A stretch of DNA of 35,408 nt from a virus: IMG/VR virus record IMGVR_UViG_3300037427_003262, positions 1 to 35,408 of that record. One strand, 5' to 3'. Positions 8,265 to 30,422 of the stretch are shown here, one piece after another. The notes beneath the pieces were generated by a model. The model saw nothing but the letters and a program-made list of their open reading frames with translations, was not told the DNA's origin and did no database searches. Numbering within the stretch: the first letter of the stretch is position 1; each line of letters begins with the position of its first letter. Both the position numbers and the translations under genes were made by a program.

Positions 8265-8678
8265 ATGGAAAAAGACATAGAAATCTTCGAGGGAAAAACC
8301 TTTTCATCGTTAGTTCGTGACATATATAATAATTCTTCTCACAAGAAGGATCAGATAAATCAAATTATTAAAGATCTACATTCTATGATAAAGGATGTGG
8401 GTGGTGCAACGGTAGTCGCACCAATGATAAAGGATTACCTTGATGTCAGTGTTAAAAACGATGACCAACTAATAAAACTCTCAGCAGTACTTCAGAGAGT
8501 AATGAACGGTGGTACGTCACAAGAGTCTTCCGGGGATTTTATATTAAGTGATGCGGAAAAACAACAATTGTATGATAGTATGCAAGACGAACTTACAGAC
8601 ATAAAAAAAACTGACAGGGATATTACTGATCAAATCGGAAAAATAACAGACACTATTAAGGAAGATGGCACACAGTAA
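8265..8678 (+). CDS. Small helical protein at the head of the baseplate operon
   Basis: 137 residues, mostly helical and acidic, with a C-terminal heptad-like region (about 98-137, DELTDIKKTDRDITDQIGKI) suggesting a coiled coil. No family is recognised. It overlaps the hub gene by 14 nt, so it is translationally coupled to it. Small coiled-coil proteins next to the hub gene could act as hub assembly factors or chaperones, but that is only inference from position. Confidence 0.6.
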   Translation: MEKDIEIFEGKTFSSLVRDIYNNSSHKKDQINQIIKDLHSMIKDVGGATVVAPMIKDYLDVSVKNDDQLIKLSAVLQRVMNGGTSQESSGDFILSDAEKQQLYDSMQDELTDIKKTDRDITDQIGKITDTIKEDGTQ

Positions 8679-11785: not shown

Positions 11786-12235
11786 ATGAAGAAAAAAGAG
11801 TTAATAGAAATTATACAACTTGCGGTAAGGAAAGAGTTACGTGCATCTCTCCCGGCAATTGTGAAAGAGTGTTTGTCGGAAACCCAAACCACAACCACAA
11901 AAAAACGTAAATCAGTTCCAACGGATCCCGTTGAACTTGCAAAACGAGCACTAATGTCGGAGAAGTCTACAACGATAAGTGCAGGTAAAAAGAAACCTAT
12001 GGTACAATATACAAAGAATTCTGCCATAAATGAAATTCTAAATAATACATCAGGTGGAATACCACAAGAGGGGTCTAGGGTAACCGGATCGTCCACCGAG
12101 ATGAGTGAAATGACTGATTTGAACGGAAATTCCGTGGATATGGATCAACTACCAGAGTCAGTTTCCTCTGCATTAACACGGGACTATACGGCTTTGCTAT
12201 CTGCTGTGGATAAGAAACGAGGAAAGACTTCATAG
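11786..12235 (+). CDS. Unknown baseplate-operon protein
   Basis: 149 residues. The N-terminal 35 residues look helical (MKKKELIEIIQLAVRKELR); then comes a basic Thr/Lys stretch (TTTTKKRKS) and a polar, probably disordered C-terminal half. No known family is recognised. It lies between hub and gp25, and its TAG stop shares a base with the GTG start of gp25 (TAGTG), so it is co-translated with a core wedge gene. A structural or assembly role is likely from position only. Confidence 0.6.
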   Translation: MKKKELIEIIQLAVRKELRASLPAIVKECLSETQTTTTKKRKSVPTDPVELAKRALMSEKSTTISAGKKKPMVQYTKNSAINEILNNTSGGIPQEGSRVTGSSTEMSEMTDLNGNSVDMDQLPESVSSALTRDYTALLSAVDKKRGKTS

Positions 12236-12624
12236 TGATTGAGTCAAAAATACCACTTGGAATAAAACTTCCGTATCGTAAAGGTCCGGGTGGGTATTTC
12301 TTGCAAACCCACTCCGACATGGAACGGGCCAGAAATAATTTGAAGATGCTATTGATGACCGCAAAGGGTGAACGACCACTCATGCCAACCTATGGAAGTG
12401 ACCTACATGAATTACTATTTGAACCCAACGTCGCAGATCATATGGATGATTTGTTCGAAGATGCGGTACGAGAAACGACTACAATTTGGATGCCAGAAGT
12501 TACCATAACATATGTTAAAGTCGAAAGAGATTTGATAAATACACCAAGCACCGCAACATTAAATATCGGATTTTCGATCACAAGCATCCCAAATTCTGAG
12601 CAAATTTTAATACTGGAGATATAA
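12235..12624 (+). CDS. gp25: Baseplate wedge protein gp25 (GPW/gp25 family)
   Basis: 129 residues, the normal length for the family. The signature runs from GYFLQTHSDMERARNNLKMLL (about residues 20-40) into TAKGERPLMPTYGSDLHELLFEP (about 42-64): the G-E-R-x-x-x-P-x-x-G-x-x-L-x-x-L-F-E-P motif of gp25/W proteins. In T4 it clamps the gp6 wedge and helps start sheath assembly. Start is GTG at 12235, overlapping the upstream TAG; the next ATG (12319) would delete the conserved N-terminus. The gp6-like gene starts 1 nt after its stop, a classical 25-6 order. Confidence 0.93.
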   Translation: MIESKIPLGIKLPYRKGPGGYFLQTHSDMERARNNLKMLLMTAKGERPLMPTYGSDLHELLFEPNVADHMDDLFEDAVRETTTIWMPEVTITYVKVERDLINTPSTATLNIGFSITSIPNSEQILILEI

Positions 12625-12625
12625 C

Positions 12626-14602
12626 ATGGCAGACGGAATCGACAACCCAGTCAAAACTACATCAAGAGATATAAACTATCTTGGCAAAGATTTCAACGCA
12701 TTCAGGCAAAACTTGATAAATTATGCGAAATCATATTTTCCACAAACATACAAGGACTTTAGTGAAAACTCCACGGGTATGATGTTTATTGAAATGGCAA
12801 GTTATGTTGGTGATGTTTTGTCGTATTATATAGACTATCAATTCAAGGAGGGTTTTATACAACACGCAGAAGAACGTAAAAATGTAGTAACACTTGCAAA
12901 TTATCTTGGATATACTCCCAAACCGGTTACATCTGCATCTACCGAACTTGAGGTCTTTCAACTTGTACCTGCAAAGACAAATCCCACAACCGGTGAGGTT
13001 GAACCAGATTACAAGTTTGCATTGAACATCTCAGCTGGTATGGAGGTCACATCGGCCGATGCAACACCAATTGTATTCAGAACACTGGATTCGGTAAATT
13101 TCACCGAAAACTCCGAATCAAATCCAATAAATGTTTCTGTGTTTGATAGAGACCCAACTACACAAGAACCGACATTTTATTTGCTGAAAAAGGTCACGAT
13201 GGTTTCTGCCGGAACATTGAAGACTCGGGAAATTTCCGTATCAACGGCAGAACCCTTCTATGAAATTGAGTTGATAGAACCAAATGTCCTTGAGATAGTT
13301 TCTATTAAAGATTCAAACGGGAATCAATATTACCATGTCCCAAATCTTGCACAAGACACGATTTTTGTAGAAGAACAAAATACAGATGCCAGAAATCCAT
13401 TCTATAGTAAGTTTTCAGAAACCGCACCATACGTGTTGAGGTTGATACGAACTTCAAGAAGATACATAACCAGGGTTAATTCCGATAACACGATGACAAT
13501 TGAGTTTGGTGCAGGAACCGACAAAATGGATGATGAGGTGATAATCCCTAACTTAAATAATGTGGGGAGATTGTTAAGCACACAACAGAGTTTTGAGGTT
13601 GCATATGATCCATCCAATTTTTTGAAAACTAAAAGTTATGGTGAAGCACCCTCAAATACAACACTTACTGTACAATATTATGTTGGTGGTGGTATATCAT
13701 CAAACGTATCATCAAATACACTAAACAACATATCACTTATAAACTTTGAAGATCAAAGTGAATACCTAACTGCACAGGAATCTACTATATTAAACACAAT
13801 TAGAAGTAGTATCCGAGTTAATAACCCAGACCCCGCACTTGGTGGAAAAAATGCAGAGTCAACTGACGAGATTCGGTTAAATTCTCTTGCATACTTTTCT
13901 GCCCAAAACCGAGCAGTGACTCGGGAAGATTATGTTGTACGGGCATACTCTATGCCAAATAAATTTGGAAGTGTAGCAAAAGCATTTGTAACTCCAGATG
14001 GAATTTTAGATTCAATGACTCAGTTATCATTGATAAAGTCACTCGATGAACAACCCACAAAGGTGAGTCCAAGTGGACTCACTCAGGTATATGGAGAGGT
14101 AAACAATCCGTTTGCAGTTAATATGTATGTATTGAGTTATGATAAAGATAAGCATTTAGTTTCTCCCAACGAACTTATATTGAAAAATCTTAGAACATAC
14201 TTGGGTCAATATAAGATGCTCACGGATGGAGTAAACATAACCAATGCGTTTATTATAAATGTCGGAGTTGACCTTGAAATCTCGGTGTTTCAAAACTACA
14301 ACAAGATTGACGTTTTAGCAAGTGCAATTCAGTCTGTGAAAAAATTCTTTGACATTGATAGGTGGCAAATTTCCCAACCAATTGAAATGGGTGACCTTGA
14401 ACTTGAGATTGCAAAAATAAATGGAGTTAAGTCGGTTACTAATTTACGAGTTTATAATAAAACTATTGAGGACGGAAACTATTCATCTAATGTATATGAT
14501 ATGGAATCTGCAACTTTTAATAAAGTTGTATACCCTTCAATGGACCCGTCTATATTTGAATTGAAATTCCCATCACGGGATATTGTGGGGAGGGTTGTGT
14601 AG
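12626..14602 (+). CDS. gp6: Baseplate wedge protein gp6-like (baseplate J family)
   Basis: 658 residues, very close to T4 gp6 length. The N-terminal region (DINYLGKDFNAFRQNLINYAKSYFP and FSENSTGMMFIEMASYVGDVLSYYIDY, about residues 15-73) is a hallmark of gp6-like wedge proteins in T4-type phages. The C-terminal third (about 400-560), with NRAVTREDYVVRAYSMP, matches the baseplate-J core. In the particle, dimers of this protein form the ring that joins the wedges around the hub. It directly follows gp25 and its stop shares a base with the next start (TAGTG). Confidence 0.9.
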   Translation: MADGIDNPVKTTSRDINYLGKDFNAFRQNLINYAKSYFPQTYKDFSENSTGMMFIEMASYVGDVLSYYIDYQFKEGFIQHAEERKNVVTLANYLGYTPKPVTSASTELEVFQLVPAKTNPTTGEVEPDYKFALNISAGMEVTSADATPIVFRTLDSVNFTENSESNPINVSVFDRDPTTQEPTFYLLKKVTMVSAGTLKTREISVSTAEPFYEIELIEPNVLEIVSIKDSNGNQYYHVPNLAQDTIFVEEQNTDARNPFYSKFSETAPYVLRLIRTSRRYITRVNSDNTMTIEFGAGTDKMDDEVIIPNLNNVGRLLSTQQSFEVAYDPSNFLKTKSYGEAPSNTTLTVQYYVGGGISSNVSSNTLNNISLINFEDQSEYLTAQESTILNTIRSSIRVNNPDPALGGKNAESTDEIRLNSLAYFSAQNRAVTREDYVVRAYSMPNKFGSVAKAFVTPDGILDSMTQLSLIKSLDEQPTKVSPSGLTQVYGEVNNPFAVNMYVLSYDKDKHLVSPNELILKNLRTYLGQYKMLTDGVNITNAFIINVGVDLEISVFQNYNKIDVLASAIQSVKKFFDIDRWQISQPIEMGDLELEIAKINGVKSVTNLRVYNKTIEDGNYSSNVYDMESATFNKVVYPSMDPSIFELKFPSRDIVGRVV

Positions 14603-16540: not shown

Positions 16541-16559
16541 TATCTGAGTTTAATTGGTT

Positions 16560-19500
16560 ATGAAAAAATATCATAAATATGTAAAGGAGGCCCCGACTAA
16601 TATGGATTTTGATTATCCACGTGGGTCTCCCGTGGATGCATCCATGTTTGACATACTAACAGGTGACTCACCTGAACAAGCACCACTGGAGTTTGGTAGG
16701 TCTCCGAAAGATATAATTGAATTTTCTGTATATACCCAAGAAAACGAAGTCTTACAATCCAAGTTAATTGATAGGGATGATAGTTTTTTAGAACGCAAAT
16801 ACGACTTTATCGACTATAATGGTGAACACCGAATGGGCACGTTACATACGTTTGACAGGAATTACCAAGTTTCTGAATCGGGTGACGTGATTATATCACC
16901 CACACACGAACTTAGTGAACTCGGATATACAGACGGAACACATAAAATTGGTGTCTCTTTTAGAAACGATATTATTGGATCTGCTGAATCAACTGCAAAG
17001 TTGATGGTAGTTGGTATATCACCCTCTCGGATGGAAGTCAAGATTGTCCCATCTGGACTAAAGACATCCAAGAAACCACTGGAGGTGTCTTTAAACTTTG
17101 AATATGATAATTTTTTCAACAAACGATTGTTGGTTGCCAACATATACAACGAAACATTTAAGTTTATTCGTACCGAGGGTTTGCCTGCATATATCAACCG
17201 AGTTATAGAGGACAACGAGATAGAGGGGTATCACGATTCAGTTTTACAGATAGTTGAGTTATTTGGTATGAGTTCACACCAAGATTTTATCAAAGATTGT
17301 AGTGGATTACATGAACAAATTACATCTCTGTATTTCAATATTATGTTGTGGAAGTACAATGATGTATTTTCGGAAAGTGATTTCGCAAGAGAATATGTGA
17401 GGTGTGTGGATAGAATACTTGATACAAGTTCAAGATTTTCCAATAAAGATAGAGATGAATCTTTAATAGAACCACATGACATATACAGAAAGACCTTGTT
17501 GGCACAATATAACTCCAAACGAGTAACCGATATATATAATGCCAAATTTACATCATATTTTTCAAATGTATTGAATTTTTCCGATGGGTCTATAGTACCG
17601 TTCGTTAATGTTGTTCGTGGAACAGAGAATGCCGATGATTCACGGAAGCACCGTCCGTTGGTGGTAAAGTTGATAGATCCACTTCCTACTGACGTGTCAG
17701 TTGGACAAAAATTGCATATGTCGAACGTAGCTTACTCGGACGATATAATACAGACAACCGTTTTATATAAACGATCAAAACCAGAATTGTATAAAATGCG
17801 TGGGCCGAATATGTCGTTTACTTCACCCGGGGGTTCTGCACAATATACACTTGAAAAACTCGAAAGCACAAAGCACGAACAAAATAGAAATGCGTTACTT
17901 GACTCCGAGGATGAATTAACAGACTCGTTGAAGGAACGACTTTCCGACATTGAGCAGGAGTGGAGGGAGGAGTTATACGGAACACCATTACAAATATCCG
18001 ATGAGATTTCGAGATATTTCCAGTCAAACATCGAGGATACATATTTAACTACCGACTATTCTGATTTTTCAAAGTTTGTTAGGTATTCTTCGGCAAGAAA
18101 ACGACTAGATGTTTTTATATATAAACTAGCAAAGATATCGGAGTTTGACCGGCAGATGGAAAGTATTCGTCGTGCATGGAGAACATCCACGGCGGAACAA
18201 TTCGGCAGGATGTCATATGATGACCAAATGCAGAAACTGCGTACTGAGAAGAATAAAATGCTTAGTGGGTTCGATGGGTATGAGAGATTTTTGTATTTTG
18301 AGGATATTGTACAATTAACAGAGACTGCAAAAGACTTACAAGACCAGATTGATAAGATAACTCTGTCAATGGAACGTAGAGGAGAAACTGTATCTGAACT
18401 TGAGCAAATTGCTGACTTGGAACGCAGATTGACATATGTGTATGTTAGTTGGCCAAGGCAGGATTTTGAATGTGATAGTGTGGATGATTGGTCTGAGAAT
18501 GTTTCTGATTATGTATATGGTGAAGCAGTGATGTATGATGATTCGGTTTGGATAGTATCGGAAAACGCAACTCCACAACCAACTGACATACCAGGAACAA
18601 CAAACGCATGGCAGTTTTTTTGTAAATGTGGGGAGTGTGTTGGTAAAAAAATTCCAATGACCACATCATCGTATACATTTTTATCCGCACGAACATATTA
18701 TAGACCAGAACCAATTCCACCTACAATGGAGGAGTTTTCCAAAAGTCAGGCATACTCTTGGTATTCTTTGAAGGCCAAGGAAGCAGACTTTTACGATAAG
18801 CACAATGACAACTCAATGTTGAGCAACACCCCTGAGTTTATAACCAGAGATGATGATAATTCTGATTATTTTGATTTTTTGAACTTCATCGGACATCAAT
18901 TTGATTTGATTCATTTATATGTCGAGGGAATTGGTTCTATAAAACAACCCCTAAACAATCCAGATAAGGGTATTCCAAATGAGATGGTATCTCATATGTT
19001 AAATTATTTTGGAGGTGGGTTTGTTGGGTATGATGATGGTGAGGTAAGTGCATTGATGAACCAAGTAACTACGAAGTCACACATTGAGTTCATTAATAAA
19101 TTCAAAGAGAGAAAGAATATAATCTGGAGACGAATATTAAATAATCTTCCACAGATGTTAAAGGCGGTGGGAACGGAGCAATCTGTCCGAATCATGTTTA
19201 GATGTTATGGTGTACCTGATTATTTGTTCAGAATTAGAGAGTTTGGTGGTGTTGAATATAACACCGACTTGAGTGACGAGGCAGTTTATAGTTTTGACAC
19301 ATTTGACTATTATTTGAATATCTCTGGGGGCAATCAATATGTGGAGTTGGATTGGGGGAATTCATCGTATGATATTAATACACTTGAGTTTAGATTTGGA
19401 TTTGCCGAACATGGCATTGATGTTGAAAGCAACCCACATATAGTAGTTGCGTCATCTCCTGGAAAGTGGGAATTTGGATATGAACCGTCCGAGGAGAACT

Positions 19501-22500
19501 TGGAACAGATATACGGTAGGTTTTACTTTTCCATACATGATGCAAGTGGAACACCCACAAAAACATATTTTAGAGACACACACACTGGAAGTGAGTGGGT
19601 TCATCCATTTAAGGGATCGTTATATGATATATTAATAAGAAGGCAATCAGGTGAGTTGGATACGGAGAGACGTGGGTTGCAACTATATGCTAAACGGGTT
19701 GAGCAATATGAGGTGGTGTATAATTCATATGCAGAAATATCAACAACTGATCATGCGTATAAAATGTTTCACGATAAGTCAACGTCATCTACAATTACAT
19801 TTGGAAACTACACTCATTCAAACTTTGCCGGGAGGATTGACAGATTACGCATATACCAACACGTATTACCAGAGCATAGATTTGAAAACCATATATTATT
19901 TAATCAATCATATGATACGGATGATCCAACAACCATTGATGAGACACTAATCTTCAAAGCAAATTTTGACTACCCATACGACCTAAGAAGTTCGGGTGAG
20001 AACAACTACGGTATCATCGAAAACACCGCATTCAGACAAGACGCACCTCAATCCGCCCGTTGCTACAATTTTGTCAAGGGTGACTATCCGTATGACTTTT
20101 CTGGTGAACCCGTTAGGCATTATTCCAAACTTCCATCGTATGGTTCTCAGGTATTCAATAATAATAAAATTAGATTGGAAACACAAGAACTTATAACACA
20201 ATTGTCGGTGTCGGACAGGTCAACACTAAAGAGTAATGATAGACTAACCGCAGATACGAATACGGTGGGGGTGTATTTCAGTTCAAGTGATTTGATAAAT
20301 CACGAAATAATACGATTTTTCGGAAATTTTAAATTGGGTGATTATATCGGAAATCCAGATGATTTGTACAAAAGTGTTTATGGAGAATTTGATGCGTTGA
20401 GGCATACTTTTTATAAGCATGGTTTCGGCAAGTTGGACTTTTCTACATATCTGAATGTAGTTGAATCGTATGTCGACCCATCGTTATTTGACAATATAAA
20501 GAAACTTGTTCCGGCAAGAACCCGATTAATTTCAGGCCTCGTAGTTGAACCAACATTGTTGGAACGACCTAAATTAAAAAGACGTCCACTGCAAAATGAG
20601 ATTATCAAACTTGATGATATTAATTTCAACCTAAAACCGGATTGTTCCAATCTAGTATCACCGGCAAACCGAAGGCACTATGTAAATCCCACCGACCAGA
20701 GTGAACTAACGGGTTATGATTTTAACGCAGTTCATTCGGCGAGGGTATCCAACTGGTATCCAACGGAGTATAATATGAACTCGGTTAGAGATATACCAAA
20801 TGAACTTATGTACGGAATCAGTGCATATCAAGGCACATCATCTGGGTATAAAATAGAAACACTTTCACCAACATACTCACGATACAATGTAAGTCGTGAT
20901 TCTGGTAGAACATATGGTGCGATAAAGATGAGTGGCACTATAATAGAAGGATCTACATTCAATTGTGTTATGTATGGTCGTTTTGGTTCTGCAATTAAAA
21001 CTAAAAATTATATCAAGAAGTTTGTCGGTTGGATTCATCGTGACACAACTATAAATGGTGAGATTCCAACTATTGTGGGTGGGTATGGTGCAAACGGATT
21101 TGCCAAATTTTCATATGTTTTTAATGGTCATCGTGTGGTCGGTAAGTTACAGGGTGACTTCGTAGGACAGATGCAGGAAGGGACGGTTAGGAAACTACAA
21201 GTTCTTGGAAAATTCGGTGGACAGATATATGACGAATGTTCATCGGAGTATATATCAGGAACTATACTAAGTGATTTAATCGAAGGTTTTAAATTTAATA
21301 AATCTGCCAATATGACCGGACAGGATAACCGAACATCTATACAGGTGGTGGAAACCAAGTTTACAGACGGTGATATTAACGCAGTGGAGTTACCCAAGAC
21401 CATACGGAAGAAAGTTCCGATTGAAATTGAGTATGATGTAACATATAAATTGCAAAATGTCGATTCTGGTGTATCAAGGGTTTCCGGAAATTATGATGGA
21501 ACACTTTCACTGGATATCTCTGCGGTTTTTATACCACCTGATGTAGTAACATATCATGTTGAGTGGGAACGTGGCAGGGTTATCGTGGATGAAAACGGCA
21601 TGAACGTGTTTGATAGTGTGGAAACTTTACTTAACATACAACGTTCGTCACATGACTATGTGCATAATATTAAACGTAAAGAGTATGATGTAAATCAACT
21701 AGTTTCATCCGATGATCTTATATTGAAACCCAAATATGTTTCGGATGTAAATGTTGACAGAAAGTCGGAGCAGGAAAACATATTGAATAGTTTGAAGAAT
21801 CGTGCGTGTGATTCTTCCAAACTTTCCAAATATATCGAAACACTCAAAACGTTGGAGAACATATCCGTCAGATATGAATTGACCGGAGACGCATTCATGA
21901 ATGGGTATGACGGACACACATTCTACGTGTCGGTCAAACCTCCTGTACACCTCAAGGTCGGGGACCGTGTATATATGCAGGGGGTTGTTATGCAATATGA
22001 CAATTGTGAATATACTGCCGATTATATAGACTTTAATGATGCTTATTATACAATAACAAAGGTATCACACAATGATTCTACTGGTAATGTTGATATCGAA
22101 TTCCCACACGAAAAGACGAACTTTTCCACTGAGTGTGGTGGGACATATGCATACGGTGGGAGTATTGGAATGGCACCCGAACTGTCAAATATAACAGACG
22201 AGGTCTATGATATTGGTGTATATGAAATGTTTTATGATTATGATATACCTTTTAATTTTATTCAAAAACTTCGCACACCTGTGGTGGATACAAACGAAGA
22301 TGGTGTATATGATACTCTCCGTGATGATATACCATTGTCAATTTCATGTGAAAATGGAGAGTTTAGTGCAAGGTGGGTAGACAATACACAGACAGATTCT
22401 TCTGGAAGTAAATTAACCGGAGAGATTAAACTTGGATTTTCCGATGATCCTGATGTTCGGGGAGTGAAGAAGCAAACTGCATCGGAATGGTATTTTGGAA

Positions 22501-24341
22501 ACGATATTAACACGGAAGACGGGTTACCCGACCAAACTTGCAATGACATTTATAGATTGAAGATTAGTGTGAATGTAAGTAGACCTGAACGGGTGGTTAC
22601 AAAACCAATGATAATTGATGAGAATATTAGTATTGGTGATGTGGTGGAGGTGGTATTCCGTAAGGGTTCATATTTATGGCATCCGTCCACAAAGGGACTT
22701 GAGGTGTCAACTGGGATTGTTACCAACTTGGAGTCAGACAAAGATGCCAACATGACGATATCGGTAAAGAATTCAACAGGGGTCGTGGATTCATTTCCAT
22801 TAAATGAAACTCATGTATATAGTGTGCGAATAGTTACCTCAAGTGATACAACATCCACAAAGGAGATACCATTTTCGGATAAATATTCAGAGACACTGCG
22901 TGGTACATCTCCTGATGAGCAACGATATTATCCAGACAAGGATTCGGTCACACTTCCCATTAAGATTAAAAGTTCGTCATTTGTGGTTGTTGAGAAACCA
23001 TATGAGTTTTATAATATAGTTGATATAGGAAACCCAAACTTTAAGATATGGGATGGAAGGTTTCCACAACACAAGGGATTGCATAGGAATGTTTTTTCAA
23101 AGACCAACAAACGCAGAGGAAACTTATATTGTAGACGATCAGTTAGTTCCGTCAATACTACAGTAAGTGGTGATACTGGTTCACCAGATTATACACCACC
23201 GATTGTGCGTACACGAAAAACTGCAATACAAGATTCAGTTGGGGATTCTTTTTGGTATCTTGATGATACACCAGTTACACAACCTGTGGGGTGTGGTATT
23301 GAAGGCCATTCATCGCAACAAATACCCACATCACCCTGCGACATACCTCCAACAGAAACTGAAACGCAGACCGATGTGGATGTGTCTGCAACCGACCCAC
23401 TTGAATTAGAATCATTGATGTTACACTACACATTTGAATCAGACCCAACTACTAATATCGTAGAGGATTCTTCCGGTAATGGCAGAACTGGGACATTGCA
23501 CAACTCCATAATTCGTGATGGTGGAGTTTCCCGAAGATATAGGAAAATTTTGGAACTCGACAACGATGTGCATACTGATCCAGATAACACACAGAGTTAT
23601 CTCGGTGTGAACAACATACCATTTAGCACATCGGCACTAACCATTGGGTTTTGGATTAGACCGGTTGGGGTTAGTGCTGATGATGTGGGTATAATACTAA
23701 ACAACTCGGCCGAACCCAATTCACGTCATGGTATAATAATGAACCCCAACGGGAATCAATATGCACTTGGATATTCGTGGAATGATAATGAAAATTCTCA
23801 TAATGTTGATTTGGGTGCTAATTTAGTACATGATTCGTGGAGTTATGTGGTAATATTATTATATCCAGGTGGATTTGTACGAACGTTTATCAATAACTGG
23901 TTTATATCAAATTATGATCTTGGTGTGAGGCATGAGAATGTTTCGTTTGATAACCTAGAGGTGGGTAGATTTTCTGGAATGATAGATGATATTAGGATAT
24001 ATAACGAGATACTCGATTATGGTAATGTTCCACTTGCAAAGGAAGCAACGGGTACGGTTGCGAGACTATACAACTCCACCCGACAACCACCACAGAACAC
24101 CACACATGATCCGGAGTATTGTGATTTACACCAATACGATTTCAGATATTATCAACATCCAGATTTCATAATTGCAAATAAAATGTATGATTTGCACCCC
24201 GGAAGTGACCCCGTATCTGATCCGGAAGTAGAGTCAAAGAGAAAATTTGATATACGGGGTGGTGCAAATGATGGACAAAAACGCAACGCAACTACTGAAT
24301 TTATGGGGAGATTGTGTGGAAGTCTCAAAGAGATCAGTTGA
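16560..24341 (+). CDS. Giant tail/baseplate protein with two LamG-like domains (gp7-like position)
   Basis: 2593 residues from the ATG at 16560 (a TTG at 16554 is the other option). The N-terminal 600 residues are mixed, with coiled-coil stretches. Residues about 725-900 contain DYFDFLNFIGHQFDLIHLYVEG, NLPQMLKAVGTEQSVRIMFRCYGVP and RIREFGG, which I recognise as a pattern of large wedge/gp7-like and tail proteins of T4-type marine phages. Residues about 918-1105 look like a LamG/concanavalin-like jelly roll (FAGRIDRLRIYQHVLP closes it). About 1315-1350 carries DNIKKLVPARTRLISGLVVEP, typical of the same group. A second LamG-like domain spans about 2286-2486 (MLHYTFES, SSGNGRTGTL, IDDIRIYNE). 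LamG folds bind glycans, so it probably both builds the baseplate and contacts the host. Its position after gp6 fits gp7. Confidence 0.6.
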   Translation: MKKYHKYVKEAPTNMDFDYPRGSPVDASMFDILTGDSPEQAPLEFGRSPKDIIEFSVYTQENEVLQSKLIDRDDSFLERKYDFIDYNGEHRMGTLHTFDRNYQVSESGDVIISPTHELSELGYTDGTHKIGVSFRNDIIGSAESTAKLMVVGISPSRMEVKIVPSGLKTSKKPLEVSLNFEYDNFFNKRLLVANIYNETFKFIRTEGLPAYINRVIEDNEIEGYHDSVLQIVELFGMSSHQDFIKDCSGLHEQITSLYFNIMLWKYNDVFSESDFAREYVRCVDRILDTSSRFSNKDRDESLIEPHDIYRKTLLAQYNSKRVTDIYNAKFTSYFSNVLNFSDGSIVPFVNVVRGTENADDSRKHRPLVVKLIDPLPTDVSVGQKLHMSNVAYSDDIIQTTVLYKRSKPELYKMRGPNMSFTSPGGSAQYTLEKLESTKHEQNRNALLDSEDELTDSLKERLSDIEQEWREELYGTPLQISDEISRYFQSNIEDTYLTTDYSDFSKFVRYSSARKRLDVFIYKLAKISEFDRQMESIRRAWRTSTAEQFGRMSYDDQMQKLRTEKNKMLSGFDGYERFLYFEDIVQLTETAKDLQDQIDKITLSMERRGETVSELEQIADLERRLTYVYVSWPRQDFECDSVDDWSENVSDYVYGEAVMYDDSVWIVSENATPQPTDIPGTTNAWQFFCKCGECVGKKIPMTTSSYTFLSARTYYRPEPIPPTMEEFSKSQAYSWYSLKAKEADFYDKHNDNSMLSNTPEFITRDDDNSDYFDFLNFIGHQFDLIHLYVEGIGSIKQPLNNPDKGIPNEMVSHMLNYFGGGFVGYDDGEVSALMNQVTTKSHIEFINKFKERKNIIWRRILNNLPQMLKAVGTEQSVRIMFRCYGVPDYLFRIREFGGVEYNTDLSDEAVYSFDTFDYYLNISGGNQYVELDWGNSSYDINTLEFRFGFAEHGIDVESNPHIVVASSPGKWEFGYEPSEENLEQIYGRFYFSIHDASGTPTKTYFRDTHTGSEWVHPFKGSLYDILIRRQSGELDTERRGLQLYAKRVEQYEVVYNSYAEISTTDHAYKMFHDKSTSSTITFGNYTHSNFAGRIDRLRIYQHVLPEHRFENHILFNQSYDTDDPTTIDETLIFKANFDYPYDLRSSGENNYGIIENTAFRQDAPQSARCYNFVKGDYPYDFSGEPVRHYSKLPSYGSQVFNNNKIRLETQELITQLSVSDRSTLKSNDRLTADTNTVGVYFSSSDLINHEIIRFFGNFKLGDYIGNPDDLYKSVYGEFDALRHTFYKHGFGKLDFSTYLNVVESYVDPSLFDNIKKLVPARTRLISGLVVEPTLLERPKLKRRPLQNEIIKLDDINFNLKPDCSNLVSPANRRHYVNPTDQSELTGYDFNAVHSARVSNWYPTEYNMNSVRDIPNELMYGISAYQGTSSGYKIETLSPTYSRYNVSRDSGRTYGAIKMSGTIIEGSTFNCVMYGRFGSAIKTKNYIKKFVGWIHRDTTINGEIPTIVGGYGANGFAKFSYVFNGHRVVGKLQGDFVGQMQEGTVRKLQVLGKFGGQIYDECSSEYISGTILSDLIEGFKFNKSANMTGQDNRTSIQVVETKFTDGDINAVELPKTIRKKVPIEIEYDVTYKLQNVDSGVSRVSGNYDGTLSLDISAVFIPPDVVTYHVEWERGRVIVDENGMNVFDSVETLLNIQRSSHDYVHNIKRKEYDVNQLVSSDDLILKPKYVSDVNVDRKSEQENILNSLKNRACDSSKLSKYIETLKTLENISVRYELTGDAFMNGYDGHTFYVSVKPPVHLKVGDRVYMQGVVMQYDNCEYTADYIDFNDAYYTITKVSHNDSTGNVDIEFPHEKTNFSTECGGTYAYGGSIGMAPELSNITDEVYDIGVYEMFYDYDIPFNFIQKLRTPVVDTNEDGVYDTLRDDIPLSISCENGEFSARWVDNTQTDSSGSKLTGEIKLGFSDDPDVRGVKKQTASEWYFGNDINTEDGLPDQTCNDIYRLKISVNVSRPERVVTKPMIIDENISIGDVVEVVFRKGSYLWHPSTKGLEVSTGIVTNLESDKDANMTISVKNSTGVVDSFPLNETHVYSVRIVTSSDTTSTKEIPFSDKYSETLRGTSPDEQRYYPDKDSVTLPIKIKSSSFVVVEKPYEFYNIVDIGNPNFKIWDGRFPQHKGLHRNVFSKTNKRRGNLYCRRSVSSVNTTVSGDTGSPDYTPPIVRTRKTAIQDSVGDSFWYLDDTPVTQPVGCGIEGHSSQQIPTSPCDIPPTETETQTDVDVSATDPLELESLMLHYTFESDPTTNIVEDSSGNGRTGTLHNSIIRDGGVSRRYRKILELDNDVHTDPDNTQSYLGVNNIPFSTSALTIGFWIRPVGVSADDVGIILNNSAEPNSRHGIIMNPNGNQYALGYSWNDNENSHNVDLGANLVHDSWSYVVILLYPGGFVRTFINNWFISNYDLGVRHENVSFDNLEVGRFSGMIDDIRIYNEILDYGNVPLAKEATGTVARLYNSTRQPPQNTTHDPEYCDLHQYDFRYYQHPDFIIANKMYDLHPGSDPVSDPEVESKRKFDIRGGANDGQKRNATTEFMGRLCGSLKEIS

Positions 24342-24416: not shown

Positions 24417-25079
24417 ATGGGATATCTCAACAACGAAACAATTACAGTAGAGGCCGTTCTAACAAAACGAGGACGGGAACTTCTTGCATCGGACAGTGGT
24501 CTGACTATAACGAGCTTCGCACTTGCGGACGATGAAATAGATTATACATTATATGATCCAAATCATCCAGACGGTTCACAATATTTTGACATGGCACTCA
24601 GAAATACTCCGGTGTTTGAACCATTGACTGACGAAACTCAGTCGTTGAAATATAAGTTAGTAACACTACCATCCGGTACAAAGCACATCCCGGTTATTAA
24701 ACTTGGTCAACAAAGTATAACATTAGACAAAGACTATAATGGTGTTGTTACACTAAATCCAACTACAAATCCTGTATACAATACACGAATGGGATATACT
24801 GCGGTTTTGTCAAATCGTGAAGTTGGAACTATAACTGGATCTGGTGTAGATGCTTCGGTTGGAGAGAATACTTCAATATTTCTTGGAGATACCGCAAGCA
24901 CCTTCGCACAAACCGCAGTTGGTTTGTCATTTGAATTTAGAGTGAATCCATCAATAACACGAAATGTTGGTGCAAACTTAACCATCATTGGAAACGAGAG
25001 TGGTGGTTCAATAACCATCCCGGTTAATGTACTCGCAGAACCACTTGAGGGGATTTCCGAGAGCGGAAATATAGGATAA
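24417..25079 (+). CDS. Virion structural protein, conserved marine-phage type
   Basis: 220 residues. The N-terminus, with MGYLNNETITVEAVLTKRG and ITSFALADDEIDYTLYDPNH (about 30-50), then TQSLKYKLVTLPSGT, is a block I recall from conserved structural proteins of marine myoviruses. The C-terminal half (about 110-210) reads like an Ig-like beta sandwich (TSIFLGDTASTFAQTAVG, SGGSITIPVNV). A tail, neck or baseplate-fibre role is likely. The exact T4 counterpart is not clear. It follows a palindromic promoter box and overlaps the next gene by 1 nt (TAATG). Confidence 0.6.
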   Translation: MGYLNNETITVEAVLTKRGRELLASDSGLTITSFALADDEIDYTLYDPNHPDGSQYFDMALRNTPVFEPLTDETQSLKYKLVTLPSGTKHIPVIKLGQQSITLDKDYNGVVTLNPTTNPVYNTRMGYTAVLSNREVGTITGSGVDASVGENTSIFLGDTASTFAQTAVGLSFEFRVNPSITRNVGANLTIIGNESGGSITIPVNVLAEPLEGISESGNIG

Positions 25080-26587
25080 TGATATTTAGGGAACTTGATA
25101 GTACGGATAAAGTCTCCGGTAGAGTAACATCAATACACGATGGGATGTTTTCTGGTGAACACCCAAGTGAACTTGACAGTTTCTACTATGACGAGGATGC
25201 CCATGCAAATACACCACTCTCACAGACACACGACACAATGGTTGATGCAATCAATCATATGACAGATAACTGGACACTTCCACAGAAAGAGGATTATTAT
25301 GCAGATATATACCACGAAGAGGTTTATATCGGGGGTCTATCCAACCAAGCAGCCGAACAACAATTTTCAGTAACATATGGACATATTGATGGATATGGTA
25401 GTCCGTTGTCACAAGCATTTGACTCAAAGAGTCCTAAAATAACAAAGGCAATTTATAGTCAATATAAAAATATTCTTTTAAATCCAGATGACAAAAAGTT
25501 CACATTTACTCAATCTATTGTAAGGAATGACGGAACGCAAGGATTCGTAGGATATAACTCGGATTCTATTTATGCTATCAATTTTTCAACTGCCCGTATG
25601 AAGGAACGTCTTGATGAGGGAAATTTTGTTGTAACTCTTGGTGTGACGGTAGATGGAAATCCGTCATCTGAGATCAACTACAGGGTATCATTTCAAGATA
25701 ACAGTGTATTTGGAACGGGTGTTAATTATATAGCATCATCTCCACAATTTGGTAGAGTGTTTGACTTGGTCAAGGTTGCACACTCGGATAGATATAATTC
25801 GGATTCCGAGGATGTGGCAAGGATGGTAAGCACTCCGGAAGATTTTGTTGATAACTCAGGAAGTGACATTAGATATTGTCCCAAATCAAATCTCAGTTTT
25901 GGTCTTGTGTATCCTGACTTAGGAGTTATTATTCTAAACCCCGTTGCGGTTGCCGAACAACTACAAAAAGGTCTACACCAGGCAGTGTTAAATGATACCG
26001 CAGAGGGTGACGGAAGTTCTTGGCCAATCGGATATTCTGAAGAAGAGAATGAAGGGGCAAAGTTTGCTTGGTTTGGTGAGGTAAATCCAAATTCTCACAG
26101 ACTTGGTGATGTATCTTCATTCAATGCACAAAGGGATAGACACTCAGAGATAGTTACAGATTCAAATACATGGAAGAGTTTGGAAGATTTATATCCAGCA
26201 GGAGGAGACCGAAATTATCAAAACTTTACTAAATTGGTAACTGCACTCCAAGTCGGAAAACGATTTGAGTGCAGAAATACGGAACTTATACCATCCAAGC
26301 ATTATTTTATTAGAATTAAAAATACTGATTTTAACTATAGTAATAATCCGTCATTTGTTTATCAAGGATATGAGGCAGATGTAGAGGCTCGCAAGGCCAA
26401 CGCATCCAAGGATGATTATATGGGTAGAGTTCGTTTTAACGATTTCATAAACGACCCCCGAGTATACATAACTACGATTGGGTTATACAACGAAGATAAT
26501 GAATTGGTTGCGGTTGCAAAGTTGAGTAAACCGATATTAAAAACTTTTGATTCCGAGGCATTGGTTAAAGTTAAATTGGACTTTTAG
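25079..26587 (+). CDS. Virion structural protein sharing terminal modules with the 1260-residue protein
   Basis: 502 residues. It starts on TAATG from the gene before. The N-terminus has LDSTDKVSGRV and the C-terminus ends with YITTIGLYNEDNELVAVAKLSKP (about 463-485). Both termini resemble those of the protein at 26640-30422 (LRSSDKIVRPF and VTTIGLYSGLDLIGVAKLAKP). The middle is mixed alpha/beta with no membrane segment (SPQFGRVFDLVKVAHSDRY at about 220-238). I infer a baseplate or fibre component in which the shared ends are docking modules. No T4 equivalent is identified. Confidence 0.6.
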   Translation: MIFRELDSTDKVSGRVTSIHDGMFSGEHPSELDSFYYDEDAHANTPLSQTHDTMVDAINHMTDNWTLPQKEDYYADIYHEEVYIGGLSNQAAEQQFSVTYGHIDGYGSPLSQAFDSKSPKITKAIYSQYKNILLNPDDKKFTFTQSIVRNDGTQGFVGYNSDSIYAINFSTARMKERLDEGNFVVTLGVTVDGNPSSEINYRVSFQDNSVFGTGVNYIASSPQFGRVFDLVKVAHSDRYNSDSEDVARMVSTPEDFVDNSGSDIRYCPKSNLSFGLVYPDLGVIILNPVAVAEQLQKGLHQAVLNDTAEGDGSSWPIGYSEEENEGAKFAWFGEVNPNSHRLGDVSSFNAQRDRHSEIVTDSNTWKSLEDLYPAGGDRNYQNFTKLVTALQVGKRFECRNTELIPSKHYFIRIKNTDFNYSNNPSFVYQGYEADVEARKANASKDDYMGRVRFNDFINDPRVYITTIGLYNEDNELVAVAKLSKPILKTFDSEALVKVKLDF

Positions 26588-26639: not shown

Positions 26640-29600
26640 ATGATAAAACCACTACGGAGCTCAGATAAAATTGTCCGACCGTTTAAGACATTTAAGTCAT
26701 GGTCATATAAAAATACCGATCTATCGGATGTTATACTACTTGAGCATCTATATTACAGTACCATTGAGGGTGGAATGGTGGGTGAACCACCTTTACAAAC
26801 AAAAGTGCAGATAGAAGGTCAATGGTCGGAGTATTTTAGTGGCATAGAGTATGACATAAATCAATATACAGACGGTGGGGTGGGTTATATTGAAATATTG
26901 ACTGGTGATGTTGAACCTGTAATTGTTGCGAAATATCGTGAGGGTAACATATCAAACTCATTATTATATGAAAGTGGTAATGGTGCATCACCAGAGACAC
27001 ATGAGACCAACTTTGGTGAATTTGATCTTGTTGTAAAGCATGGTGAAAAAATAACCGGACCATTTTATCCAGTGGGTCACCGAAAATATAACAAAGAACG
27101 TGAACCAATGAACTACGATGGTTCATATCATAGAGTGGTGTATAACACCATAAAGCATTTATTCTATAATGATTATTTTGTAAGTCATTATGACTATAAT
27201 TCAAATAAAGAATTGGATATAAAAAATCCACATATGTTGTTTGGGGTGGAGAGTGCAGAATATCACGATCCAACTGTGTTGGACGATATTGACACAGGTG
27301 AATCATACACAAATAGACGAATAGAGAGACGTGTGATTGGTGATTCTATAAAAGTTCTTGAGATTTCAAGAAAACATTTTGGGGAAAAGATCAGACCAAA
27401 CTCCGTGAAGATAGTTGATTACAGTTCCGAGTTTGAGATAATAAACATAGTTGATGATGGGTATACAAATTTAATAACAACAGAAGGAACATTTGACAAT
27501 GTTCATAGAGTTGGTGTAACTTGGGCAGATCGAATTCTTGCATATGGAAAACCAGAACAATTATTCGATCCAACTGACTTTTCATTTGGAGAAAAGTTGG
27601 CGTCGAGTGGAATGTACTTTATCACCGGATGTCCAATGGAGTTTGATGAGTTATCCGAATCGCAGGCCGGAAGTGCATTTCTAAGCAAATACGACAAGAA
27701 CTCGGATTCATTTAAAACCATACGACCCTTTGCGTGTCCATTTACTCAAAACGGTCTGTCACTAGAGCAACGACATGATCACAACAATGTATTGTTAAGA
27801 CAGGTTGGTGATGTGGTACTTTCAAATGATTATTCATTGAATGACAATTTTGGAAATGCAGTTGAACTCACGGATTCATATTGTGCAATCGGTGCATCAA
27901 GGGCTCACATAAGGGGAGAGTCAGCTGAATCTCCCACCGGATATGCTTTTATATACGAAAGAAACAAGGGAGGGAATGATAATTGGGGTATGGTAAATAT
28001 CCTTGAAGGCCTACCTGGTTCTGAATTTGGTGCGTCAATATCTATCAGTGATGATATGATGGCAGTAGGTGCTCCTGGGGTATCTAATGGTTCTGGTGTG
28101 GTATATATTTTTAAACGAGAGTCTAGAACAATCAATAGTCCCTGGAACAGGATAACCGACGTGCCTGACGGATACACATGGCAATCAGAAACCAAAACAT
28201 TTGAAGGATATCCACATGGTCACGAACTTGAGGAGTTGAACCAATCAACCACACGTTGGAAAGTCAAATCAGTTATTCCAGATGGAAGCATATTAAATTG
28301 CTTCGTTGGTATAGGAACATTTGAGATTGAAGATGGGGCAGAAACAACTTCGGATATAGAATGTATGTGTGGGGTCTCAACCTTTGGTGGTGATGACATA
28401 ATTACACATGGCACTGTCAGGGAATCCGATGATGAATTTGATGCTGGATATAAACCACATACATATACCAAAAGTCCACAACAATCAATCGGGGACACAA
28501 ACTGGGTATTGGACTCGTATGTAGTGTTGGACAATTCTGAGAATTGTTCTATGTTTGGAGAGGAGGTTAAGTTGGTTGGCAATCGTTTATATGTATCCAC
28601 ACCATCATCCAAAACACAAACTTGCCATATATTTGAACGAACCCACTCCGAGTGTGACGGAATTGTGTGGACGGAGACTCATAACATAACCAGAGACAGA
28701 GTTCTTAACAAGTTATCAGGTGAGTATGTAGAACCGACACTTCCGAGTCGTGAATCTATGGTTAGTTTCCCATACGAGTATTCCGAACCAACATCACATA
28801 AATATGGAACATCAATAGATGCAAATGAAATGTACTTGGTAATTGGTGACTCGATGGATCGGGAATATTCAACGTCGGGGGACACATATACTTCTGGTGC
28901 CGTGTATGTATACCGAATTTCTGATGATATTGAGTTTGATTCTAAGTTATACGGAGAGTCCAGAATCGAAACACGATTTACATCCAAGTTTGGTCACTCC
29001 GTGTCTATTTTTGAAAATGACATTTTAATCGGATCTTATTGTCCAGATGTGAGCAAAATTGAAGTGAAGGACTCGACGATATATGTCGATGATTATTACA
29101 CGGGAACAAATGTATTGTCAGAGGAGACATATTACCACGGGTCTGAAATCAGGAATGCTATTGAGGGTGAGGCATTTTATTATAGACTCTCGTCCGATGC
29201 AGACCCGGAACTTCTCAAAAAAGTGAAGATGAATAAGAAAAAAAATTCGGTCAGACGTCAATATGCATACTCGGTATCGTTGAGCTCGGATTATATGTAT
29301 GTAGGGCTTCCCGTCATCGGAAGTTTCCCCTTCTCAGAACTATCCACATTTGATGGACATGACATGGCCACAGAATGTAGACCAAAAGAAAATCCACATG
29401 AGTCTAAAGTCCGTGAGGCACTGTTTATGTACTACGATAAGTTGAATGAGGTGGAATTGGAATCCGATGATAGAGACTTATCTGGAAATGTAATAGCATA
29501 TCGTGTAGACTCGGTGCGTGAAATGAAGAACCACCAGGTAGGTAACATTTTCTATAAAAATGGAATTGTTGTGATAACGGATGTTGCCAATCATCTGAAG

Positions 29601-30422
29601 AATATACTCAGTGGTTCATATAAAGATGGGTATGAGATAGATTTTGCTGGTACACACACTCTGTATGAGACAGAGATACTATGCACGGTAGAACCCAATG
29701 AATTTAATATGTCCACAAACCCAACTGCACTATTATCGGAGGATATTGTATATGATATTAATGGTGATGGTAAATTTGACATTTTGGATTTAATATTGAT
29801 ATATAAATTTTTAAAAGGACACACGGGTCCTTCATATGTATTTGATGACGAGGTGGCAGATGACGAGGTTCCCGGGGGAGTATCAGTTGAACAAGATACT
29901 ATGTGGCCAAATTCAGACATATTGTTAACCGAATCCGATGATGCGATTTTGATGTTTTTTGAGAGAGAGGCAGATAACTTGTCAGTTGGTGAATATAATA
30001 AAACACTTCCTGCACTGAAACGACTTAAGGATAATGGAGATTTTGATGTTGATGGTGATGGTATATCAGGTAGTGCCGATGCCAAACTAATAATTAGATA
30101 CTTCAAAGGAAACATCGGTCAAGATTTAACCCGTGGGTTGATAAATAAGAATTCAAAACGGAGGGTGTCTAGAGATATCGTTGAATTCCTGGACAAACGA
30201 ACCGGTAAGAGCAATGGAGTGGAGGTTTTACCTGAGTTTGAGAGATTTACTGATTTGGATAGGTTAATTTCGTGTGGAAAGTCTATGGACGCATTACATC
30301 CATATGTCACCACAATCGGTCTTTATAGTGGTCTTGACCTCATTGGTGTTGCAAAACTTGCAAAACCAACAAAGATAACACCAAGTTATCCAATAAATTT
30401 TTTAATAAAATATGATGGTTAA
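26640..30422 (+). CDS. Large virion adhesin-like protein: FG-GAP repeats plus dockerin-like region
   Basis: 1260 residues. The N-terminus (LRSSDKIVRPFK) and C-terminus (VTTIGLYSGLDLIGVAKLAKP) match the 502-residue neighbour. Between them, FG-GAP/integrin-type repeats recur at about residues 403, 462 (EFGASISISDDMMAVGAP, then GSGVVYIFKR), 637, 721 (YGTSIDANEMYLVIGDS, then SGAVYVYR), 784 (KFGHSVSIFENDILIGS) and 875, enough for a beta-propeller. Next come two calcium-loop repeats of dockerin type: DINGDGKFDILD plus helix (from 1039) and DVDGDGISGSAD plus helix (from 1136), about 75 residues apart rather than adjacent. FG-GAP propellers and dockerins mediate surface adhesion and protein docking in bacteria, so I infer a host-contact or fibre-docking role. 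A cohesin partner is not seen in this window. Confidence 0.65.
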   Translation: MIKPLRSSDKIVRPFKTFKSWSYKNTDLSDVILLEHLYYSTIEGGMVGEPPLQTKVQIEGQWSEYFSGIEYDINQYTDGGVGYIEILTGDVEPVIVAKYREGNISNSLLYESGNGASPETHETNFGEFDLVVKHGEKITGPFYPVGHRKYNKEREPMNYDGSYHRVVYNTIKHLFYNDYFVSHYDYNSNKELDIKNPHMLFGVESAEYHDPTVLDDIDTGESYTNRRIERRVIGDSIKVLEISRKHFGEKIRPNSVKIVDYSSEFEIINIVDDGYTNLITTEGTFDNVHRVGVTWADRILAYGKPEQLFDPTDFSFGEKLASSGMYFITGCPMEFDELSESQAGSAFLSKYDKNSDSFKTIRPFACPFTQNGLSLEQRHDHNNVLLRQVGDVVLSNDYSLNDNFGNAVELTDSYCAIGASRAHIRGESAESPTGYAFIYERNKGGNDNWGMVNILEGLPGSEFGASISISDDMMAVGAPGVSNGSGVVYIFKRESRTINSPWNRITDVPDGYTWQSETKTFEGYPHGHELEELNQSTTRWKVKSVIPDGSILNCFVGIGTFEIEDGAETTSDIECMCGVSTFGGDDIITHGTVRESDDEFDAGYKPHTYTKSPQQSIGDTNWVLDSYVVLDNSENCSMFGEEVKLVGNRLYVSTPSSKTQTCHIFERTHSECDGIVWTETHNITRDRVLNKLSGEYVEPTLPSRESMVSFPYEYSEPTSHKYGTSIDANEMYLVIGDSMDREYSTSGDTYTSGAVYVYRISDDIEFDSKLYGESRIETRFTSKFGHSVSIFENDILIGSYCPDVSKIEVKDSTIYVDDYYTGTNVLSEETYYHGSEIRNAIEGEAFYYRLSSDADPELLKKVKMNKKKNSVRRQYAYSVSLSSDYMYVGLPVIGSFPFSELSTFDGHDMATECRPKENPHESKVREALFMYYDKLNEVELESDDRDLSGNVIAYRVDSVREMKNHQVGNIFYKNGIVVITDVANHLKNILSGSYKDGYEIDFAGTHTLYETEILCTVEPNEFNMSTNPTALLSEDIVYDINGDGKFDILDLILIYKFLKGHTGPSYVFDDEVADDEVPGGVSVEQDTMWPNSDILLTESDDAILMFFEREADNLSVGEYNKTLPALKRLKDNGDFDVDGDGISGSADAKLIIRYFKGNIGQDLTRGLINKNSKRRVSRDIVEFLDKRTGKSNGVEVLPEFERFTDLDRLISCGKSMDALHPYVTTIGLYSGLDLIGVAKLAKPTKITPSYPINFLIKYDG

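Follow-up and report, generated by a model that had tools for sequence, protein, structure and literature searches.

The DNA analysed here (the window) comprises positions 1 to 35,408 of the virus record IMGVR_UViG_3300037427_003262 and comes from a large uncultured tailed phage. The features that bear on the analysis, with the evidence for each in brackets, are as follows.

12235 to 14602, plus strand: gp25-like (12235-12624) and gp6-like (12626-14602) baseplate wedge genes (PHROGs)
24417 to 25079, plus strand: P0002, gene 1 of a conserved cassette (alignment; relatives in Flavobacterium and Microcystis phages)
25079 to 26587, plus strand: the neighbouring gene P0003, whose end is a paralogous copy of the C-terminal domain without dockerin (sequence; TBLASTN of the end to short-domain copies)
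26640 to 30422, plus strand: P0001, a 1260-aa probable tail or baseplate adhesin, cassette gene 3 (ORF, FG-GAP_2, Dockerin_1, gene order)
27477 to 29537, plus strand: insertion 1, residues about 280-966, FG-GAP_2 repeats forming a predicted beta-propeller (Pfam; BLAST against the L059 ORF)
29538 to 29732, plus strand: N-terminal half of the phage C-terminal domain, THTLYETEILCTVEPNEFNMSTNPT (alignments; IMG/VR relatives)
29733 to 30290, plus strand: insertion 2, the dockerin module, about 185 residues replacing a linker of 20-47 residues (spacing survey, alignment, Pfam Dockerin_1)
29754 to 29789, plus strand: calcium loop 1, DINGDGKFDILD, residues 1039-1050, with D, N, D, D and D at ligand positions 1, 3, 5, 9 and 12; predicted helix 1048-1058 comes next
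29895 to 29969, plus strand: conserved inter-repeat segment QDTMWPNSDILLTESDDAILMFFER, residues 1086-1110, not a proven F-hand (protein identity to L001; repeat-HMM)
30045 to 30080, plus strand: calcium loop 2, DVDGDGISGSAD, residues 1136-1147, acidic at positions 1, 3, 5 and 12 and Gly at 9; predicted helix 1145-1156 comes next
30168 to 30203, plus strand: predicted helix 1177-1188 past repeat 2, overlapping a conserved FLDxxTGKxN motif (model; alignment)
30291 to 30419, plus strand: C-terminal half of the phage C-terminal domain, PYVTTIGLYSGLDLIGVAKLAKPTK...INFLIKYDG (motif spacing survey, alignments)

The two baseplate wedge genes assigned by PHROGs lie upstream of P0001 and place the gene block. 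The cassette composed of P0002, P0003 and a third gene was found at about 60 loci, and parts of it occur in Flavobacterium phage immuto and Microcystis phage Mel-JY01; P0003-type proteins have ends that match phage immuto and also Rhodothermus phage RM378. In the related locus L124 the third gene carries Laminin_G_3 instead. The upstream baseplate genes, the recurring cassette and this Laminin_G_3 swap fit a third gene that would serve as an adhesin platform receiving domain insertions. The sequence-only reading had spoken of a virion protein; the baseplate genes and the conserved cassette agree with that description, and it is from gene order only that we infer P0001 to be located in the virion.

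Several other proteins of this region and its relatives were recorded. A 2595-aa protein encoded after the baseplate genes (16554-24341) has Laminin_G_3 near its C-terminus, and P0005 (14602-15942) carries ISGSLISGS-type repeats; its Disaggr_repeat match stays below threshold (27.4 vs 33.9 bits). In L002 and L003 the P0001 orthologues contain inserted arrays of SGNFLSGCIESG, which resemble the P0005 repeats. At L012:1948-5270 the third gene is apparently split into ORFs of 679, 335 and 96 aa; the last of these is the C-terminal domain alone, and the 679-aa ORF gave a sub-threshold SprB-repeat match.

The sequences on both sides of the dockerin module belong to a phage domain family recognised by the motifs ENEFNxSxNPT and PYVTTIGLYN..LLAVAKL. 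P0001 has both half motifs of this 'TTIGLY' domain, with 21 residues from the last motif to the C-terminus. A regex survey, covering loci where the two motifs could both be identified, showed that the gap between them, counted between the search motifs, is 192 residues in P0001 but 20-22 residues elsewhere in phages, or 37-47 in a few, so that the other family members have just a short linker at the site of the module. The domain was confirmed by tblastn at no fewer than 140 IMG/VR loci, in some cases encoded by an ORF of about 96-120 aa and in others forming the end of a protein of 310-340 aa; the uncultured phage LR756508 has it too, and Microcystis phage Mel-JY01 gave partial matches. When P0001 was aligned by BLAST with the 317-aa L059 protein, three co-linear pieces were obtained (residues 160-279, 967-1031 and 1218-1259), and we therefore regard P0001 as a compact relative of this kind with two insertions, the FG-GAP propeller and the dockerin module. 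Pfam detected FG-GAP_2 in P0001 in four stretches over the cut-off (E 1.1e-17, 64.4 bits), and the short co-linear relatives (about 310-330 aa) have neither the propeller nor the dockerin module. The alignments show that the predicted dockerin-type loop-helix pair sits in one loop of a widespread phage domain. That the module is an insertion in such a domain, and that its repeats are split by a conserved segment, had been missed by the earlier reading.

Both calcium loops lie in frame in the ORF 26640-30422, where they had been placed. In a search of all six frames of the whole 35-kb window, the dockerin-repeat pattern was matched at two sites only, 29754 and 30045, and 20,000 shuffles of P0001 yielded 0.008 loose and no strict pattern matches per shuffle. 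The Pfam profile Dockerin_1 scored 21.1 bits against the whole of P0001, just below its cut-off of 22.9 bits, and 25.6 bits, above the cut-off, against the C-terminal region alone (residues 992-1260); the best score among the relatives was 40.2 bits (L117, E 3.9e-10). A profile built from 13 module sequences matched 22 distinct solved sequences in the PDB, with a best E of 2.3e-7. At least 19 of the 22, including all with E below 0.05, are named dockerins or cellulosomal enzymes, and the other matches (Amy12, 'C2 variant 3' and AaBgIC) are weak. Both repeats were matched in the Pfam and in the PDB profile alignments.

Type I dockerins are defined by duplicated calcium loops, with ligands at positions 1, 3, 5, 9 and 12, each ahead of a helix (PMC5590126). 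The module likewise has duplicated loops with a predicted helix after each, although position 9 of loop 2 is not acidic. The fit to the dockerin I pattern proposed from the sequence is thus borne out by Pfam, by the PDB profile search and by conservation in 12 other aligned sequences, and the evidence supports dockerin I-type loops in what is probably a virion protein of the phage. From the conserved ligand positions, the module is predicted to be calcium dependent.

In its spacing the module departs from solved dockerins. The loop starts are 97 residues apart vs 32-36 in solved dockerins (36 in 4fl4_A, 32 in 1daq), and the short inter-repeat linker of a compact type I module is absent. The distance of about 75 residues given earlier is correct when measured from where helix 1 ends to loop 2, but not between loop starts. 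Between the repeats, residues 1086-1110 form the best-conserved stretch of the module, being 100% identical in the window protein and L001 with synonymous sites near saturation. A degenerate third calcium loop had been suspected here. The candidate (W1089-PNSDILLTES-D1100) is strongly conserved but gave no consistent dockerin-repeat score: with the repeat-HMM it beat all shuffles in L002 and L003 only, was borderline in the window (8 of 200 shuffles) and did not rise above shuffles in L116-L118. A third loop is therefore not established.

Two AF2 models were made. The second, from 24 sequences and covering 29613-30419 of the window, had a mean pLDDT of 57.7 and was best in the repeats, where the 10-residue pLDDT means were about 68-77 near loop 1 and 73-86 near loop 2; the first was weaker (pLDDT 49.9). 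Helices run on from both loops (AF2 model positions 57-67 and 154-165, with 10-residue pLDDT means of about 67-86). Foldseek searches with both models against the PDB gave no significant match, the dockerin 6kgc_B being ranked 8 with an E of 8.7. By VIA-align three entries had Z over 2, and the top two were dockerins: 4fl4_A (67 of 68 residues, rmsd 3.3, Z 3.4) and 4uyq_B (71 of 73 residues, Z 2.5), both low Z values obtained with a model of pLDDT 57.7. The helices and the VIA-align matches are compatible with a dockerin fold, which the Foldseek search did not pick up, and the low Z values serve only as backing for the sequence result. The third VIA-align entry was a phage connector chain, from the Bas63 structure 9mt4 (chains K and L; Z 2.2, model range 11-269, Foldseek probability 0.20).

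Full-length relatives of P0001 were found on three IMG/VR contigs, with best-segment identities of 81, 44 and 45%, and further scans added L095/L102-L107, L115-L118 and L121. Both loops are intact in the window protein, L001-L003, L116-L118 and L121. L102-L105 and L115 have lost the metal ligands of loop 1 and kept the loop 1 helix and loop 2; L106 and L107 are cut off ahead of loop 1. Loop 2 is intact in all 13 aligned dockerin-bearing sequences, in which D1, D5, G6 and D12 are kept. Identity to L002 is 56% in the module vs 43% in the propeller. Against L001 the dN/dS of the module was about 0.06, a rough ratio given the high synonymous divergence, and that of the propeller was similar (0.066). 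By these comparisons the module is apparently under purifying selection and kept better than the propeller across relatives. FG-GAP repeats were detected in all dockerin-bearing proteins tested, weakly in L116-L118 (L116 and L118 just below the cut-off), and four short forms tested had neither FG-GAP repeats nor dockerin; this co-occurrence may reflect common descent with no functional coupling.

Outside this group, a scan of cellular genomes for relatives of the module returned 122 pattern matches, none of which was confirmed. A generic dockerin query, a consensus composed from general knowledge, retrieved only ten unannotated human-gut contigs from 50,697 phage records. The L003 contig also encodes, at L097:3593-5815, a 740-aa Thr/Pro/Ser-rich protein with one dockerin-like loop, DFNGDGKIDFVDWIIFSQWI, at its start; a frame search gave 12.8 bits there and a whole-protein Pfam scan found no Dockerin_1. 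Judged from this loop, the L003/L097 phage may carry a second, single-repeat dockerin module. On the L103 contig (G010), a 173-aa frame separate from the adhesin gene has another sub-threshold Dockerin_1 match, scoring 18 bits, at 8286-8372 on the minus strand.

No cohesin was found by Pfam in the window, in agreement with the earlier reading, or in eight related phage contigs (nine contigs in all, all partial), and no cohesin was among the matches of a P0002 profile to solved structures. The wider scan for cohesins that had been proposed was thus negative in the phage contigs and positive elsewhere: the one metagenome-assembled genome (MAG) in which a related phage contig was located carries two cohesins and several dockerins that pass the cut-off, and 50 of 100 sampled genomes from its phylum have cohesins over the cut-off. 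The link to this MAG is one 6.7-kb contig, which may be mis-binned and whose phage has no dockerin, and we take the MAG as a lead only in the search for a host. The hosts of phages carrying related cassette genes are Flavobacterium, Microcystis and Rhodothermus.

The dockerin family itself is already known. The module shares with type I dockerins (PF00404; the GH9 dockerin 4fl4 of Clostridium thermocellum and CelS, 1daq/2mte) the same two D-x-N/D-x-D-G-x5-D loops with a helix each. It differs from them in a spacing of 97 rather than 32-36 residues, an extra conserved segment, its position as an internal insertion and the lack of any cohesin found; the split repeats and the insertion set the phage version apart. 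Non-cellulosomal dockerins of archaea and bacteria, for example those of ANME archaea, also occur outside cellulosomes, some on surface proteins, and the genomes concerned also encode cohesins (PMC9012536), whereas none was found in the nine partial phage contigs here. Among phage proteins, the lysin LysGH15 has an EF-hand-like calcium site (PMC4022735). It resembles P0001 in having a calcium loop in a phage protein, but the loop is in a lysin CHAP domain, with neither a dockerin nor a virion adhesin. Similarity to dockerin or cellulosome proteins is mentioned in passing for gene 40 of VvAW1 (PMC3558961) and for Gp02 of phage HSE2 (PMC5967307). Within the papers open to search, which leave out most subscription journals, no account of a phage virion protein bearing a dockerin turned up.

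Since relatives differ less in the module than in the putative receptor-contact domain, a constant partner is suggested, the simplest of which would be a virion partner; this conservation suggests a constant virion-side role rather than a fast-changing host contact. The explanation we favour, tentatively and with slightly less than even confidence, is a calcium-rigidified docking or clamping module within the attachment domain of a baseplate- or tail-attached adhesin platform. Ca2+ bound in the two loops would fold the repeats into a rigid dockerin-like knob, which would project from, or brace, the C-terminal domain and make a fixed contact with a protein surface belonging to the virion itself, either the FG-GAP propeller in the same polypeptide or an adjacent virion protein. 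Such a knob would be a calcium-dependent clamp keeping the adhesin in shape or in place, not a fast-changing receptor contact. The preservation of loop 2 throughout the aligned set and the higher identity of module than propeller to L002 speak for a clamp. Against it, neither a candidate partner surface nor a cohesin-like protein was found, the AF2 model is mediocre and had no significant Foldseek match, and the degenerate loop 1 of L102-L105 and L115 implies that full calcium loading would not be essential in that clade. The same clade, having kept its loop 1 helix, would suit a pure fold stabiliser, in which the loops rigidify a long insertion and bind nothing while the inter-repeat and C-terminal helices are the functional parts, as would the fact that the best-conserved stretch is the non-dockerin segment 1086-1110. 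We consider this doubtful, given the four residues of loop 2 kept in every sequence; stabilisation and docking are hard to tell apart except by experiment.

Alternatively, the module could mimic a host dockerin and plug the tail into cohesins of the host surface or S-layer as a calcium-dependent first step of attachment. The true dockerin signature and the insertion in a probable adhesin are in keeping with this, the lectin-like Laminin_G_3 of L124 and the sub-threshold SprB match of L012 fit surface recognition, and cohesins are present in the MAG and in half of the genomes sampled from its phylum. Nevertheless host docking seems unlikely to us: the single MAG contig could have been mis-binned and belongs to a phage without the dockerin, related cassette genes sit in Flavobacterium, Microcystis and Rhodothermus phages, and the module shows stronger conservation than the propeller, which is not the pattern of a typical receptor contact. 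Positions 10-11 of the loops, taken to be the cohesin-contact positions, also vary in the relatives (IL/SA, IF/RT, II/EV, IH/SL). DxDxDG loops that arose by chance or convergence, in a helical insertion unrelated to dockerins, would account for the failure of Foldseek, for a repeat spacing about three times the canonical one and for the uneven model confidence; with profile E values of 4e-10 (Pfam) and 2e-7 (PDB), both repeats matched and two dockerins aligned near full length by VIA-align, we hold this to be very improbable.

In cellulosomes, and in surface complexes of bacteria and archaea, dockerins serve as the plugs. A plug of the cellulosome dockerin-cohesin type in a virus particle, by which the tail adhesin would dock either to host cohesins or to an unrecognised cohesin-like virion protein, is in our estimate a somewhat improbable outcome. 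The C-terminal domain that receives the module is well defined and widespread in phages, has no Pfam match here, and has a loop that tolerates large insertions. A conserved dockerin in a phage tail adhesin, if true, would be a calcium-dependent connector for virion assembly or host attachment, and would offer a handle for finding phages of cohesin-bearing microbes.
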